From assembly GCA_017620635.1 (NCBI GenBank), contig JAGAUV010000003.1:1-49164 (forward strand): a stretch of 49,164 nt of DNA, in the 5' to 3' direction. Made by a program: the position numbers and the translations under genes. Position 1 is the first letter of the stretch. Every line of letters starts with the position of its first letter. The notes below the pieces were generated by a model that was given only the letters and a program-made list of their open reading frames with translations, ran no database searches and had not been told where the DNA came from. Below are positions 380-5,694 of the stretch, one piece after another. The DNA comes from Muribaculaceae bacterium. Its GTDB lineage: Bacteria > Bacteroidota > Bacteroidia > Bacteroidales > Muribaculaceae.

Positions 380-441
380 GCCCCTATACTCTGGCTGTAG
401 AACTTTCCGTGCGATATCGAAAAATTATTTTGACAAAATGT

Positions 442-472
442 TGTGGGATCAAAAATATTAGCTTATATTTGC
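442..472 (+). promoter_or_regulatory. Bacteroidetes-type promoter of the aromatic operon
   Basis: A -7 box TATATTTG lies at 465-472, with TTG of a -33 box at 442-444 and a 20-base spacer. This fits the Bacteroidetes sigma-ABfr consensus TTTG-N19-21-TAnnTTTG. Transcription should begin near 476-480, just before the leader peptide. The stretch 380-441 shows nothing else recognisable. Confidence 0.65.
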
Positions 473-480
473 CACGTCAA

Positions 481-573
481 ATGAATAATTGTATGACGAA
501 ACGATTTTACGCATATTATTTTTCTTACTTCTATTTTGCCGGAAAATGGGAGCGGAGAGTTGTATGCGCATAA
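481..573 (+). CDS. Phe/Tyr-rich leader peptide of the aromatic operon (candidate pheL-like)
   Basis: This short ORF has 30 codons from ATG 481, or 26 from ATG 493, which leaves a more normal 5' leader. It contains the run FYAYYFSYFYF (codons 505-537), in which nine of eleven residues are Phe or Tyr. It ends at TAA 571-573, between the predicted promoter and an intrinsic terminator just ahead of prephenate dehydratase. No protein family is recognised. The placement and composition match leader peptides whose translation senses charged tRNA-Phe and tRNA-Tyr, as in E. coli pheL. A TATGCGCATA palindrome spans the stop codon (563-572). The function is inferred; the codon content is seen directly. 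A chance ORF is possible but unlikely given the product of the next gene. Confidence 0.72.
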   Translation: MNNCMTKRFYAYYFSYFYFAGKWERRVVCA

Positions 574-614
574 CGACAGTCAGTCTATATCGATAATATA
601 ATCCCGCCGCTCCT
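548..614 (+). promoter_or_regulatory. candidate antiterminator helix
   Basis: GGGAGCGG at 548-555, just after the aromatic codons, is complementary to CCGCTCCT at 607-614 (seven Watson-Crick pairs plus one G-U). The second segment is the 5' arm of the downstream terminator, so the two structures exclude each other. A ribosome stalled on the Phe/Tyr codons would leave 548-555 free. One reaching the stop codon at 571 would partly mask it and favour termination. Confidence 0.65.
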
Positions 615-639
615 ATGAGTCCGACGGGATAATTTTTTT
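601..639 (+). terminator. intrinsic terminator (attenuator) upstream of pheA
   Basis: ATCCCG (601-606) pairs with CGGGAT (625-630). The stem continues through a C-A mismatch, CG/CG, and CTC/GAG with a two-base bulge, to a CTAT loop. Seven T residues follow at 633-639, only six bases before the pheA start. Such a terminator between a promoter and its own operon points to premature termination control. Confidence 0.75.
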
Positions 640-645
640 AATAAA

Positions 646-1515
646 ATGACAGACAAACAATCGACATCGCATCGACGGGTGGCCATACAGGGTGTGGCCG
701 GATGCTATCACGACGCTGCCGCGCATGCGTATTTTGCCGGCCGTGAGATAGAGACTTTGCCGTGCGACAGTTTCGGCCTTATGTTCGACGAGTTGTCGCG
801 CGACGCTTCTCTGCTCGGCATCATGGCTATAGAGAATACCATCGCCGGCTCTCTGCTTCAAAACCACGAGTTGCTGCGAGCCTCGTCGATGCAGATTGTG
901 GGCGAGTACAAGATGCATATATCGCATACGCTTGCGGCGCTTCCGGGGCAGACTATCGACAGTCTGTGCGAGGTAAACTCCCATCCCATGGCGCTGATGC
1001 AATGCGAGCAATACCTTCTGCGGCATCCCAACCTAAGAATGGTGGAGAAATTCGATACCGCAGGCAGCGCACGTGAGATAGCGGAGAAAAAGCTTGTGGG
1101 ACACGCCGCCATATGCGGAGAGTATGCCGCGCGACTATATGGCCTTGAAATACTCGATAGGGCAATAGAGACCAACAAGCGTAATTTTACCCGTTTCCTC
1201 ATCCTCGCCGATCCTCTGACCGCCGCAGAGGAAAAGCCCTGCGAGAAAGATATCGACAAATCATCGATAGTCTTTACTTTGCCGCACACACAAGGCGCAT
1301 TGTCGAAGGTGCTTACCATATTGTCGTTCTACGATATCAATCTTACCAAGATACAGTCGATGCCTATCATGGGGCGCGAGTGGGAGTACCGTTTCTACAT
1401 CGACCTCGCCTTCGACTGCTATTACCGCTACCGTCAGGCTGTCGATGCCGTGCGGCCTCTGACAAACGATTTAAGAATATTAGGCGAATACACCGCCTGC
1501 CAGAACGAGATTTAG
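646..1515 (+). CDS. pheA: prephenate dehydratase
   Basis: This 289-residue enzyme converts prephenate to phenylpyruvate, the committed step to phenylalanine in the cytoplasm. Residues from about 10 to 190 form the periplasmic-binding-protein-like dehydratase domain, ending in the catalytic NFTRF motif with T182-R183-F184. Residues from about 205 to 280 form an ACT domain with GALSKVL and TKIQSMPI followed by WEYRFYID. The usual phenylalanine-binding ESRP segment reads QSMP here, so feedback sensitivity may differ from the E. coli enzyme. No chorismate mutase is fused; that activity sits on the DAHP synthase two genes downstream. It is the first structural gene of a tightly packed operon (two bases to the next start) and lies directly behind the attenuator. 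Confidence 0.95.
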   Translation: MTDKQSTSHRRVAIQGVAGCYHDAAAHAYFAGREIETLPCDSFGLMFDELSRDASLLGIMAIENTIAGSLLQNHELLRASSMQIVGEYKMHISHTLAALPGQTIDSLCEVNSHPMALMQCEQYLLRHPNLRMVEKFDTAGSAREIAEKKLVGHAAICGEYAARLYGLEILDRAIETNKRNFTRFLILADPLTAAEEKPCEKDIDKSSIVFTLPHTQGALSKVLTILSFYDINLTKIQSMPIMGREWEYRFYIDLAFDCYYRYRQAVDAVRPLTNDLRILGEYTACQNEI

Positions 1516-1517
1516 CT

Positions 1518-2681
1518 ATGAAAGAGATAAGACCGGCCGACAGGGTACAGTCGGTGCAGGAATATTATTTTTCGCGCAAGCTGCGCGAGGTCGCACGACT
1601 CAATGCCGAGGGACGCGACATAATATCGCTCGGCATTGGGTCGCCCGACCGCATGCCGGCCGCCGATGTGATAGATACTTTGTGTGAAAACGCGCGACAG
1701 CCCGGCTCGCACGGCTATCAGCCATATGTAGGCATACCGGAGCTAAGGCAGGCGATGGCACGTTTCTACAGCCGCCATTATGGAGTGGAGCTCGACGCCG
1801 GCAGCGAGATACAGCCGCTCATAGGCTCGAAAGAGGGCATACTCCACGTGTCGATGGCCTTCCTCAATCCCGGCGACGGCGTGCTGGTGCCCGACCCAGG
1901 CTATCCTACCTACACTTCGGTAAGCCGTCTCGTGGGCGCCGAGATATTCAATTATGATCTCACGGCCGAAAACGGCTGGCAGCCCGACTTCGAGGCTCTC
2001 GAGCGACAGCCGCTCGACAGGATAAAGCTCATGTGGGTTAACTATCCTCACATGCCCACCGGTGCGCCGGCTACATTAGAGCTATTCGAAAAGCTCGTCG
2101 ATTTCGGCCGTCGGCACGGTATCGTCATCGCCCACGACAACCCCTACAGCTTTATTCTCAACGGCAAACCGCTGAGTCTGCTGCAGATACCGGGCGCAAA
2201 AGAAGTGGCGATAGAGATGAACTCGCTCAGCAAGAGCCATAATATGGCAGGCTGGCGCGTGGCGATGCTGGCTTCCAATCCCGATTTCATACAATGGGTG
2301 CTCAAAGTGAAGAGCAATATCGACTCGGGCCAGTTCAGGCCGGTCATGCTTGCCGCCGCCCGGGCCCTCGACGCTCCCAACGAATGGTATGCCGGGCTCA
2401 ACGAGGTGTATGCGCGCCGCCGCGACATAGCCATGAAGATAATGGACATCTTAGGCTGCAAGGTGGCCGAGGGCAGCACCGGCATGTTCCTGTGGGGGCG
2501 CATACCCGACAGCGAAGCGTCGTCGGAGGAAATGGCCGACAGGATACTCTACGGCTCACGGGTCTTTGTGACGCCCGGTTTTATCTTCGGCGTCAACGGC
2601 GAGCGCTACATCCGCATCTCTCTTTGTGCCAACGAAGAAAAACTATCGGAGGCTCTGGAACGTATTAAAGAAACATACTAA
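1518..2681 (+). CDS. class I/II aminotransferase, probably aromatic
   Basis: This 387-residue PLP-dependent, fold-type I aminotransferase belongs to the aspartate / LL-diaminopimelate aminotransferase group. SLSKSHNMAGWR contains the Schiff-base lysine (K239), and the PDPGYPTY and HDNPY motifs of the PLP pocket are present. The ATG at 1518, two bases after the pheA stop, is preferred; the frame is open upstream to 1380 but that part lies inside pheA. Its position between prephenate dehydratase and DAHP synthase suggests that it transaminates phenylpyruvate and 4-hydroxyphenylpyruvate to Phe and Tyr. The substrate is inferred from context only. Confidence 0.88.
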   Translation: MKEIRPADRVQSVQEYYFSRKLREVARLNAEGRDIISLGIGSPDRMPAADVIDTLCENARQPGSHGYQPYVGIPELRQAMARFYSRHYGVELDAGSEIQPLIGSKEGILHVSMAFLNPGDGVLVPDPGYPTYTSVSRLVGAEIFNYDLTAENGWQPDFEALERQPLDRIKLMWVNYPHMPTGAPATLELFEKLVDFGRRHGIVIAHDNPYSFILNGKPLSLLQIPGAKEVAIEMNSLSKSHNMAGWRVAMLASNPDFIQWVLKVKSNIDSGQFRPVMLAAARALDAPNEWYAGLNEVYARRRDIAMKIMDILGCKVAEGSTGMFLWGRIPDSEASSEEMADRILYGSRVFVTPGFIFGVNGERYIRISLCANEEKLSEALERIKETY

Positions 2682-2692
2682 AGAAGAAAGTT

Positions 2693-3766
2693 ATGAAAGA
2701 TATACAGTCGCTTTTCCCGTCGGAACTCAACGAACATCCACTTGTGATCGCCGGCCCGTGCAGCGCCGAAAGCGAGGAGCAGGTGCTCAATACGGCCCGT
2801 CAGCTCGCACGCAACGGTGTCAAAATCTTCCGCGCAGGCATATGGAAACCTCGGACCAAGCCGGGCGGTTTCGAAGGCGTGGGCAGCGTAGGTTTTCCCT
2901 GGCTTGCCAAGGTAAAGGAGGAGACAGGCATGCTCACTGCCACCGAGGTGGCCAACCGCCAGCATGTGGAGGTCGCCCTCGAGGCCGGTGTGGATATTCT
3001 TTGGATAGGCTCGCGCACGTCGGCTAATCCTTTTGCAGTGCAGGAGATCGCCGATGCGCTGAGCAGCTCGGGCTGCGATATTCCTGTCCTGGTAAAGAAT
3101 CCCGTCAATCCCGACCTCGAGTTGTGGATAGGCGCGCTGCAGCGCGTCTATAATGCCGGCATACACCGTCTGGGTGCCATACACCGAGGTTTCAGCGCCT
3201 ACGGCAAGCATATCTACCGCAATATGCCGCAGTGGCACATACCCATCGAGTTGCGCCGCCGCTATCCGAATCTGACCATGATATGCGATCCGAGCCACAT
3301 CGGCGGCAAGCGCGAGCTCATAGCGCCGCTGTCGCAGCAGGCTCTCGACATGGGCTTCGACGGCCTGATAATAGAGAGCCATTGCGACCCCGACTGCGCG
3401 TGGAGCGACAAGGCGCAGCAGATTACCCCCGAAGTGCTTGACGTCATACTCAATACCCTCGTGCTCCGCGAGAGTGTGGTCACAACCGAGAGCCTTGCCC
3501 TTCTCCGGCGTCAGATCGACAGCCTCGACAACGAACTCCTCGAGGTGCTCAACAAGCGTATGGCTGTGTCGCGCGAGATAGGCAAGTACAAGAAAGAGCA
3601 CAGCATGCCTGTGGTGCAGATCGGCCGCCACGACGAAATAATGCAGAACCGTGTGCGTGCCGCCGAGGATATGGGTATGGACGGCGACTTCATGCGCATT
3701 GTCCTCTCGGCGATACACGAGGAATCGGTACGGCAGCAGATAGAAATATTCAACGGCAAACAGTGA
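2693..3766 (+). CDS. bifunctional DAHP synthase / chorismate mutase
   Basis: This 357-residue fusion has an N-terminal type I-beta 3-deoxy-D-arabino-heptulosonate 7-phosphate synthase (about residues 10-255). It shows GPCSAES, KPRTKPGGFEG, and ICDPSHIGGKR. A C-terminal AroQ-type chorismate mutase follows (about 265-350), seen in LRRQIDSLDNELLEVLNKRM and the EIGKYKK helix. It thus supplies both the first step of the shikimate pathway and the branch step from chorismate to prephenate. In characterised relatives the mutase domain also gives allosteric control of the synthase by prephenate. No N-terminal regulatory ACT domain is present. It lies 11 bases after the aminotransferase. Confidence 0.95.
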   Translation: MKDIQSLFPSELNEHPLVIAGPCSAESEEQVLNTARQLARNGVKIFRAGIWKPRTKPGGFEGVGSVGFPWLAKVKEETGMLTATEVANRQHVEVALEAGVDILWIGSRTSANPFAVQEIADALSSSGCDIPVLVKNPVNPDLELWIGALQRVYNAGIHRLGAIHRGFSAYGKHIYRNMPQWHIPIELRRRYPNLTMICDPSHIGGKRELIAPLSQQALDMGFDGLIIESHCDPDCAWSDKAQQITPEVLDVILNTLVLRESVVTTESLALLRRQIDSLDNELLEVLNKRMAVSREIGKYKKEHSMPVVQIGRHDEIMQNRVRAAEDMGMDGDFMRIVLSAIHEESVRQQIEIFNGKQ

Positions 3767-3768
3767 CT

Positions 3769-4542
3769 ATGAAGATACTTATTATAGGAGCCGGCAAGAT
3801 GGGCTCGTTTTTCTGCGATATTCTTTCCGACAAACACGATGTGGCCATGATCGACACCGATCCGCGCCGGCTGCTGTTTACCTACAACTGCCGTCGTTTC
3901 GGTTCGCTCGACGAGGTGGACGCTTTCGCCCCCGATATGGTAATCAACGCCGCCACGGTAAAATATACCCTCGACGCCTTCCGCTCGGTCCTGCCGCATG
4001 TGCCCGAGGGGTGTATACTGAGCGACATTTCTTCGGTCAAGACAGGCCTGCCCGAGTTTTATGCCACATGCGGCCATCCTTTCGTATCGACGCATCCGAT
4101 GTTCGGCCCCACCTTCGCCTCGCTGAGCAATCTGGCCAACGAGAACGCCATTATAATAAGCGAGGGCGATCATCTGGGCAAGGTGTTCTTCAAGGATATA
4201 TACAGCAGCCTTGGGCTGCATATAGAGGAATATACCTTCGACGAACACGACAAGACGATAGCCTACTCACTGTCGGTGCCCTTCGCCTCGTCGCTCGTCT
4301 TCGGGGCGTGCATGAAGCACCAGTCGGCACCCGGCACGACTTTCAAGCGCCACAAGGCAATCGCCGACGGCCTTATGAGCGAGGACGATTTCCTGCTGAG
4401 CGAGATTCTGTTCAATCCCAACACTCCGGCGCAGCTCGAGAGCATACGGAGCAAGCTCGCCGAGCTGCAGGATATAGTCGAGCGCCGCGACACGGGTGCA
4501 ATGAAGTCCTTCCTCGAAAGAGTGAGGGAGAATCTGAGATAA
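3769..4542 (+). CDS. tyrA: prephenate dehydrogenase
   Basis: This is a 257-residue NAD(P)-dependent enzyme converting prephenate to 4-hydroxyphenylpyruvate for tyrosine. The N-terminus carries a Rossmann motif (IIGAGKMGSFF) with an acidic residue at the end of the second strand (MIDTD). SDISSVKTGL and STHPMFGP mark the substrate site of the TyrA family. No chorismate mutase or ACT domain is attached, so it is shorter than many relatives. ATG 3769 is preferred to the overlapping GTG at 3763; it begins three bases after the preceding stop. It closes the operon ahead of a strong terminator, so one transcript carries both the Phe and the Tyr branch, matching the mixed Phe/Tyr leader peptide. Confidence 0.93.
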   Translation: MKILIIGAGKMGSFFCDILSDKHDVAMIDTDPRRLLFTYNCRRFGSLDEVDAFAPDMVINAATVKYTLDAFRSVLPHVPEGCILSDISSVKTGLPEFYATCGHPFVSTHPMFGPTFASLSNLANENAIIISEGDHLGKVFFKDIYSSLGLHIEEYTFDEHDKTIAYSLSVPFASSLVFGACMKHQSAPGTTFKRHKAIADGLMSEDDFLLSEILFNPNTPAQLESIRSKLAELQDIVERRDTGAMKSFLERVRENLR

Positions 4543-4884: not shown

Positions 4885-5694
4885 TTATAATTGGGTTTCA
4901 GGATCGAGGTTGGCGCTTTCGATATCTTTGAAGTAGCGGTATGTCGATACTTTGAGCTCCGCGCAAGCGTCCTCGTCGGCGATGATGAGCGCCTTGGGGT
5001 GCATCTGCAGGGCTGATATCGTCCACATCTGACTCACACCGCCTTCTACACCGTGGTGGAGGGCACGGGCCTTGTTGTGGCCGTTGACGATGAGCATGAC
5101 CGAACGGGCGTCCATCACGGTGCCTACACCTACAGTGAGCGCAGTTTTGGGCACGAGGTCGGTGTTGCCTTCGAAGAAGCGCGAGTTGGCTATGATGGTG
5201 TCCTGGGTAAGAGTCTTTACTCGTGTACGCGAGGTAAGCGACGAGCCCGGCTCGTTGAACGCGATGTGCCCGTCGGGGCCTACACCGCCCATGAAGAGTT
5301 CGATGCCGCCGTAGGAGGCGATCTTTTCTTCGAAGCGGCGGCACTCGGCGGCGAGGTCGGCGGCGTTGCCGTTGAGTATGTTCACGTTCTCGGGTTTGAT
5401 GTCGATGTGGCTGAAGAAGTTGTTCCACATAAACGAGTGGTAGCTCTCGGGGTGTTCCTGCGGCAGACCTACGTATTCGTCCATGTTGAATGTTACCACG
5501 TTGGCAAACGATACCTTGCCTTGCTTGTTAAGCTCGATGAGGTGGCGGTACATGCCTAATGGCGAGCTGCCGGTGGGGCAGCCGAGCACGAAGGGGCGAT
5601 CAGCGGTGGGCTTGAACGCATTGATCTGCGCTGCCACATAGTTTGCGGCCCAGAGTGAAACGTCGGTGTAGTCTTTTTCGATTATGAGTCTCAT
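4885..5694 (-). CDS. nagB: glucosamine-6-phosphate deaminase
   Basis: This 269-residue enzyme converts glucosamine 6-phosphate to fructose 6-phosphate and ammonia, the last step of amino-sugar catabolism. Length and residue numbering match the E. coli enzyme. D72 lies in FNMDEYVG, and D141, H143 and E148 lie in [15 protein letters not shown], so the full catalytic set is present. No nagA or transporter gene lies beside it here. The upstream outer-membrane protein gene is on the same strand 47 bases away, and no promoter was recognised between them, so read-through is possible. Confidence 0.97.

Follow-up and report, generated by a model that had tools for sequence, protein, structure and literature searches.

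A putative Phe/Tyr leader-peptide attenuator upstream of pheA in Muribaculaceae and other Bacteroidales

The DNA analysed here (hereafter the window, 49,164 nucleotides from a Muribaculaceae bacterium) opens within the final part of a glycoside-hydrolase-like gene (ORF 50-379, which scores 25.7 in Pfam where the cut-off is 27), beyond which an aromatic amino-acid operon is encoded on the forward strand. Its genes follow an intrinsic terminator in the order pheA, prephenate dehydratase (646..1515; PF00800, E 1.4e-49), a class I/II aminotransferase (1518..2681; PF00155, E 1.5e-62), a DAHP synthase-chorismate mutase fusion (2693..3766; PF00793 and PF01817) and tyrA, prephenate dehydrogenase (3763..4542; PF02153, E 6.5e-09). 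The detection by Pfam of both pheA and tyrA downstream of the leader agrees with an earlier reading of this DNA, the first-pass annotation, in which the operon was said to make both Phe and Tyr. Convergent with the operon lies nagB, for glucosamine-6-phosphate deaminase (4885-5694, minus strand; TIGR00502 above cut-off). Between the upstream ORF and pheA, a Bacteroidota-type promoter can be placed at 441..471 on the forward strand. The promoter had been called previously and the call stands for its -7 box (TATATTTG, 464-471), which is good, and less well for the -33 side (TTG, 441-443), which by eye is weak.

Downstream of this promoter, the forward strand carries a leader peptide ORF (493..573) of 26 codons plus stop, which encodes MTKRFYAYYFSYFYFAGKWERRVVCA. 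A second in-frame ATG is present ahead of it at 481, and position 493 was chosen as the start because the ORFs of relatives begin there; both start and frame are kept in relatives. The tiny ORF with nine Phe/Tyr in eleven codons that had been described at this locus is indeed there, its control codons (505..537, forward strand) reading FYAYYFSYFYF (4 Phe and 5 Tyr). No other stop-free run of 11 codons with at least eight Phe/Tyr was found in the 49-kb window, nor was any in 40 Markov shuffles. A search of the 2.2-Mb genome for the exact pattern of aromatic codons returned one match, and the reversed control also returned one, so that the pattern search by itself is weak evidence.

The RNA of this region can form three alternative helices. 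Segment 1 (510..537, forward strand), which overlaps the control codons, pairs with segment 2 (543..568, forward strand) at -22.9 kcal/mol through 510-516/562-568, 518-524/554-560 and 528-537/543-552, and none of 1000 shuffles was as good. Segment 2 competes between this helix 1:2 and the antiterminator helix 2:3 (-23.6 kcal/mol; 11 of 1000 shuffles as good), in which 546-555 pairs with 607-616 and 559-564 with 597-602. Segment 3 (597..616, forward strand) provides the 3′ strand of the antiterminator and overlaps the 5′ side of the intrinsic terminator, helix 3:4 (601..639, forward strand; -11.5 kcal/mol; 22 of 1000 shuffles as good); helices 2:3 and 3:4 both covary in relatives. Compared with shuffles, helix 1:2 stands out most among the three. 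The terminator had been located correctly, as a hairpin (601-630) followed by seven T residues (633-639) six bases before the ATG at 646. The previously proposed complementarity of 548-555 to 607-614 holds as 8 bp including one G-U (GGGAGCGG with CCGCTCCT), within an antiterminator that is longer than had been stated. The statement that there is no strong 1:2 helix was wrong. Since a strong 1:2 helix exists, the classical set of helices 1:2, 2:3 and 3:4 is complete, and the full set of parts of ribosome-mediated attenuation claimed in the first-pass annotation is present, including the helix that it had missed. In the fold predicted for the whole leader (475-641), helices 1:2 and 3:4 are formed, so that the untranslated state is predicted to be off. 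The AA between the stem and the T-run is a feature of the window terminator, which was missed by an automatic terminator scan and by the terminator rule applied to relatives.

For the comparison with relatives, pheA was located by protein search at the level of genus, family, order, class and phylum, with a match in 19 of 49 genus genomes, 100 of 149 family genomes and 80 of 198 order genomes. The loci read comprised 19 at genus level, 87 further ones at family level and 48 further ones at order level; the family pheA matches left out were those of G122, G097, G049, G174, G150 and G095 and, at contig edges, those of G160, G158, G061 and G161. With a leader defined as an ORF in which 7 or more of 11 codons specify Phe or Tyr, one preceded pheA in 129 of the 154 Bacteroidales loci read (16/19 at genus, 70/87 at family and 43/48 at order level, the last being 25/28 plus 18/20). 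Named carriers include Barnesiella sp. WM24 (L050) and Duncaniella muris DSM 103720 (L098), whose leader is MKRFYAYSYFYYFYFDKK. Control windows of 510 nt were tiled fully on both strands. Such an ORF occurred in 2 of 760 windows from genomes without a pheA match, where a single ORF (L377) was counted twice through overlap, and in none of 1008 windows located 600-3000 nt upstream of pheA (56 loci), which makes one ORF with at least 7/11 Phe/Tyr in 1,768 overlapping windows. The Phe/Tyr leader arrangement before pheA is confirmed as real and not a product of chance.

The elements surrounding the leader ORF recur with it. A hairpin of -7 kcal/mol or better before a T-run was detected between leader and pheA in 120 of the 129 leaders; the terminator rule missed six (L001, which is the window, L005, L021, L031, L032 and L186) and returned implausibly weak hairpins for L014, L190 and L169, that of L190 being a proper one on inspection. 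For 119 of 127 leaders a box of the form TAnnTTTG, which we take to be the consensus of the -7 element, lies at most 90 nt 5′ of the ATG, where shuffles would give 5.6%, and the median distance from the G of the box to the ATG is 25 nt. Motifs resembling a Shine-Dalgarno sequence precede only 7 of 129 leaders.

The leader also extends beyond the order. Among class-labelled loci, 11 of 26 carried it, three of the 26 being same-order genomes that have the leader; class loci outside the order carried it in 22 of 40 cases (8/23, and 14/17 in a second batch) and loci outside the class in 5 of 24, shares that come mostly from best-scoring pheA matches and are not random samples. In one family outside the order, four loci (L241, L244, L247 and L255) show short ORFs upstream of pheA reading TYFWFYP or TYFWYYP, in which Phe, Tyr and Trp codons occur together, and strong hairpins before T-runs. 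Trp is found in several further leaders from outside Bacteroidales, and the TYFWFYP/TYFWYYP leaders possibly sense all three aromatic amino acids. Four loci under the titles Lachnospiraceae, Pseudoflavonifractor, Paenibacillus and Clostridium (L055, L058, L093 and L095) have a Muribaculaceae-like pheA, 74-76% identical, and look like misnamed metagenome bins; the leader is present in the first three, and L095 has a poorer one. In the window's own genus (g1), 30 of 49 genomes lack a match to the window PheA and 48 of 49 have a DAHP synthase-chorismate mutase, so that the genomes without a PheA match have either a Phe auxotrophy or a different PheA.

The negatives within the order amount to 25 of the 154 loci. 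Six of them reach 5-6 Phe/Tyr in 11 codons, of which L007, L134 and L227 resemble poorer leaders, with the usual terminator in L007 and L227 and a hairpin lacking the T-run in L134; L036, L164 and L210 are unlike leaders, L164 being F- and G-rich. L038 and L217 are cut by contig ends, and the terminator of L038 is still present. The first-pass annotation had regarded relatives that keep the hairpin and lack the aromatic ORF as evidence against its reading. Among the 25 negatives one clear case of this kind was found, L149 (G073), in which the TATATTTG box and an AATCCCG...CGGGATT terminator are present and the leader ORF is missing; it is possible that this locus is a decayed attenuator. On reading the pheA upstream regions of the remaining negatives of the order, no Phe/Tyr leader was seen. 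In genus g20, the negatives (G087, G106, G124, G139, G164 and G176) have pheA and DAHP synthase on separate contigs, and none of these six genomes showed a leader with at least 7/11 Phe/Tyr upstream of pheA. In genus g26, no leader precedes pheA in L036, L037 or L129. The region upstream of pheA in L036 and L129 shares a TGATAATGATTATTATTG stretch, and L037 encodes the same DYYCFAFIHI reading. We take the shared stretch to resemble a Fur box.

The alignment of relatives' pheA leaders that the first-pass annotation had proposed revealed, besides the aromatic ORFs in 129 of 154 loci, compensatory changes in both helices for which it had been suggested. It contained 54 leaders, the window and 53 picked by hand from the 74 that, out of 129, passed a length and 85% identity filter. 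The terminator helix 3:4 was paired in 93.8% of cells, with changes on both sides in 9 of 11 pairs and a covariation of 0.306, compared with 0.070-0.135 in slid controls. For the antiterminator helix 2:3, 79.3% of cells were paired, both sides had changed in 11 of 14 pairs and the covariation was 0.251, compared with 0.086-0.113. The observed covariation values were reached by 0 to 6 of 500 shuffles, a control that ignores relatedness. Because helices 2:3 and 3:4 share segment 3, the sequence has changed without loss of either pairing, as in the compensated variants CGGGATT/AATCCCG and CAGGATT/AATCCTG. Similarly, the flanks of 78 leaders contained 400 pairs, compared with 334 (sd 7) after partners were swapped between genomes, a value reached in 0 of 2000 permutations that likewise ignore relatedness. 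When individual leaders were compared with their shuffles, no more than 5 of 100 matched helix 2:3 in 103 of 120 leaders; the corresponding count for helix 1:2 was 76 of 120, and in the other 44 it was matched by at least 6 of 100. The ORF itself bears a coding signature. Across 116 distinct aromatic cores, T occupies the first codon position in 85%, A or T the second in 83% and T or C the third in 89%. Phe is encoded 518 times and Tyr 505 times, followed in frequency by Ser and Ala.

The position of segment 2 relative to the control codons was analysed in the 78 of 120 leaders in which a TCCCG-like anchor has a partner that matches it perfectly over 5 bp, the search for this partner running from 3 nt ahead of the last aromatic codon to 45 nt beyond it; the 42 leaders without this arrangement were dropped, and the window leader, missed by the terminator rule, was unscored. 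In these 78 leaders the core of segment 2 starts 10-22 nt (median 15) 3′ of the last aromatic codon. With ribosome footprints of -12/+15 or -15/+12 around the P site, assumed from general knowledge, a modelled ribosome on the last aromatic codon leaves the core uncovered in all 78 scorable leaders, and a modelled ribosome on the stop codon covers at least 80% of the core in 65 or 66 of 78, depending on the footprint, against 35% for uniformly placed stops. The stop codons form two groups, one ending 9-15 nt (29 leaders) and the other at least 24 nt (49 leaders) beyond the last aromatic codon. In 72 of 78 leaders, pairing of the core with segment 1 has a probability above 0.5. In the window, the stop-codon ribosome placed by hand would cover about 553/556-580/583. 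Most of 548-555 is thereby left bare, so the off state of the window would lean on the inner 1:2 hairpin 528-537/543-552. The first-pass annotation had suggested that the off state may rely on masking of 548-555 by the terminating ribosome; such masking need not act alone, given the strong 1:2 helix, and in the window it would be partial.

A covariance model of the leader (R1), searched in the 149 family genomes, matched 87 of them with E values of 0.01 or lower. With the limit set at 4.4e-4 there were 84 matches, and 79 of these lay 2-85 nt upstream of a pheA match on the same strand. The five others comprised three in G158, G160 and G161, where the pheA match is near the edge of one contig and the leader match lies on another, a second match in G169 that resembles a terminator, and one in G187. 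Eight of the 13 weaker matches (E above 4.4e-4), as well as the second one in G169, look on inspection like plain terminators without an aromatic leader, the weak matches outside the inspected set being two in G180 and one each in G044, G145 and G075. At 40 loci upstream of DAHP synthase in genomes without a pheA match, a few of them truncated where the contig stops (L411 and L415 are about 800 nt long), R1 gave a single match, with an E value of 0.98. The leader thus seems to be usually absent where pheA is absent.

The exceptions are informative about the codon mix. G187, a 96% complete genome that is not among the 100 family genomes with a pheA match, has a leader directly preceding the aminotransferase, DAHP synthase-chorismate mutase and tyrA. 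This leader reads MKRYCSYYYSVSYFYPE, with 6 Tyr to 1 Phe, and its Phe share is below that of every one of the 129 pheA leaders (lowest there 3/10). Among the 93 leaders with long enough loci, pheA is followed by an aminotransferase or DAHP synthase in 91. Two leaders stand before a solitary pheA: L201 (G205), with seven Phe and no Tyr, and L190 (G214), with nine Phe and two Tyr, both Tyr in the tail. No other leader of the 93 has a Phe share as high as theirs (Mann-Whitney p 0.016); L220 (G304), with tyrA linked and a locus too short for the 93, has ten Phe and two Tyr, a share of 0.83 that is just above the 0.82 of L190. No TyrA match was obtained in G205, and the tyrA of G214 is on another contig. 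When 46 genomes were divided by linkage of tyrA to pheA, the Phe share did not differ between the groups (0.59 against 0.63, p 0.44), a comparison that missed distant TyrA proteins could blur. Judging from three draft genomes, noticed post hoc, the codon mix of the leader appears to follow the genes served.

We consider, with a probability of about 0.9, that the element is a ribosome-mediated transcription attenuator sensing charged tRNA-Phe and tRNA-Tyr. This is also how the first-pass annotation had read it, and the conserved leaders and compensatory changes in relatives support that reading. The parts, their exclusive pairings, the covariation, the geometry and the match of codons to genes in the three exceptional genomes are features of the sequences, from which we infer that, in the cell, transcription and translation are coupled, ribosomes stall and transcripts terminate. 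Transcription would begin just past the TAnnTTTG box, and a ribosome would translate the leader behind RNA polymerase. If either charged tRNA were scarce, the ribosome would stall on the aromatic codons of segment 1, block helix 1:2 and leave segment 2 free just ahead; segment 2 would then pair with segment 3, the terminator would not form and the pheA, aminotransferase, DAHP synthase-chorismate mutase and tyrA genes would be transcribed. With both charged tRNAs plentiful, the ribosome would reach the stop codon and either cover part of segment 2 or be released so that 1:2 forms; in either case helix 3:4 could form and the transcript would end near 639. When the leader is not translated, the predicted fold, 1:2 plus 3:4, would correspond to the off state. 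A slow ribosome on the leader would thus, very probably, turn the aromatic pathway on.

Other explanations of the same features have to be weighed. The ribosome might be stalled by the aromatic peptide in its exit tunnel, perhaps together with the free amino acid, as is known for TnaC, and not by tRNA scarcity. The start of the peptide is often kept as MTRFYAY, which is more than codon counting alone needs; the order and ratio of F and Y nevertheless vary, and peptides such as MRRNSFRFFFFFAFFF or MKRYCSYYYSVSYFYPE share little but their aromatic content. As this content also matches the genes served in the three exceptional genomes, and the offset of segment 2 from the last aromatic codon is narrow, nascent-peptide arrest is improbable. 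It is still less probable that a pyrimidine-rich stretch is kept only for pairing in helix 1:2 and that the ORF is incidental. Segment 1 does pair with a purine-rich segment 2, which favours T-rich sequence, but base use varies with codon position in a strongly periodic way, the start codon and the frame are conserved, and the Phe and Tyr shares of three genomes differ in keeping with their gene content.

The remaining candidates concern the terminator. Riboswitches, T-boxes and protein-binding RNAs also combine a terminator with an alternative antiterminator, and one of them might govern the hairpin before pheA. This is very improbable, as no Rfam covariance model reached its gathering score anywhere in the window, the three matches obtained within 400-700 at E up to 10 were at chance level, and conservation outside the ORF is mostly confined to the pairing strands. 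The least probable of all is that the hairpin, which does sit between two co-directional genes, merely terminates the glycoside-hydrolase-like ORF that ends at 379: a promoter box (464-471) lies in between, such a box being present in 119 of 127 leaders, and a hairpin with a T-run separates leader and pheA in 120 of 129.

In Escherichia coli, pheL/pheA has a leader rich in codons for the product, three alternative helices and a terminator before pheA, and the present element is alike in all three respects. It differs from pheL/pheA in that Phe and Tyr codons are mixed about equally and serve one operon for both amino acids, in its TAnnTTTG box, in the rarity of SD-like motifs (7 of 129 leaders) and in having no Rfam leader match. 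Attenuators of the trpL/hisL type follow the same 1:2, 2:3, 3:4 logic, with control codons inside segment 1 as here, for other amino acids and in another phylum. The features of pheL/trpL found here are a product-codon ORF, a terminator, mutually exclusive 2:3 and 3:4 helices, a 1:2 helix over the control codons and a modelled stall that leaves segment 2 free. The Bacteroid-trp RNA motif (RF01692), which we take to be a trp attenuator, is a family separate from the pheA leader; it was not found in this genome and was unmatched in the window. The text consulted lists this motif for Bacteroidetes (PMC2864571). For the Flavobacteriaceae, PMC9723704 reports that a structured 5′ element in front of pheA is conserved, and it sees 'strong clues' that amino-acid operons of F. 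psychrophilum are attenuated through leader peptides. The claim that no well-characterised aromatic case is known in Bacteroidetes has to be tempered to this extent, as a pheA 5′ element is not wholly unreported. That element shares with ours the gene, the phylum, a transcribed 5′ region without an Rfam match and the suggestion of attenuation; the text consulted mentions neither Phe/Tyr codons nor helices, and no occurrence in other families (PMC9723704). The window leader is likely to be the same element. Short ORFs reminiscent of leader peptides have been described in long 5′ UTRs of B. thetaiotaomicron, in a main text that does not contain the word 'phenylalanine' (PMC7366714), and a Phe-codon uORF before aroF in one that does not contain 'Bacteroid' (PMC8632094). 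According to PMC2965389 (2010), no demonstrated leader-peptide system was known to its authors beyond Proteobacteria and Actinobacteria until their own case in Firmicutes. Among the literature matches listed, no title or start of an abstract describes a Phe/Tyr leader in Bacteroidales, and an earlier prediction is possible in the comparative attenuation work of the Gelfand and Lyubetsky groups (2004 and 2010). On the comparative evidence, the pheA leader would work like the pheL and trpL attenuators, and its order-wide Phe/Tyr form, geometry and tracking of gene content are undescribed among the matches listed.

The distribution of the leader raises the idea, which we hold tentatively and at slightly less than even odds, of one ancestral attenuator across Bacteroidia, an either-or sensor of Phe and Tyr in which evolution adjusts the mix of codons each time the operon acquires or loses a branch to one of the end products. 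Genomes that lack a branch would then be natural experiments on the amino acid sensed: a lone pheA with a leader of only or nearly only Phe codons, and a tyrA operon without pheA with a Tyr-rich leader. Since attenuation needs a ribosome close behind RNA polymerase, a conserved case offers a direct way to test whether transcription and translation are coupled in Bacteroidota. If the idea of one ancestral attenuator holds, its wide conservation would mean that ribosomes follow RNA polymerase closely throughout a phylum in which Shine-Dalgarno initiation is largely lacking. For Bacteroidales, major bacteria of the gut, the leader would provide a concrete, testable switch of aromatic amino-acid synthesis.
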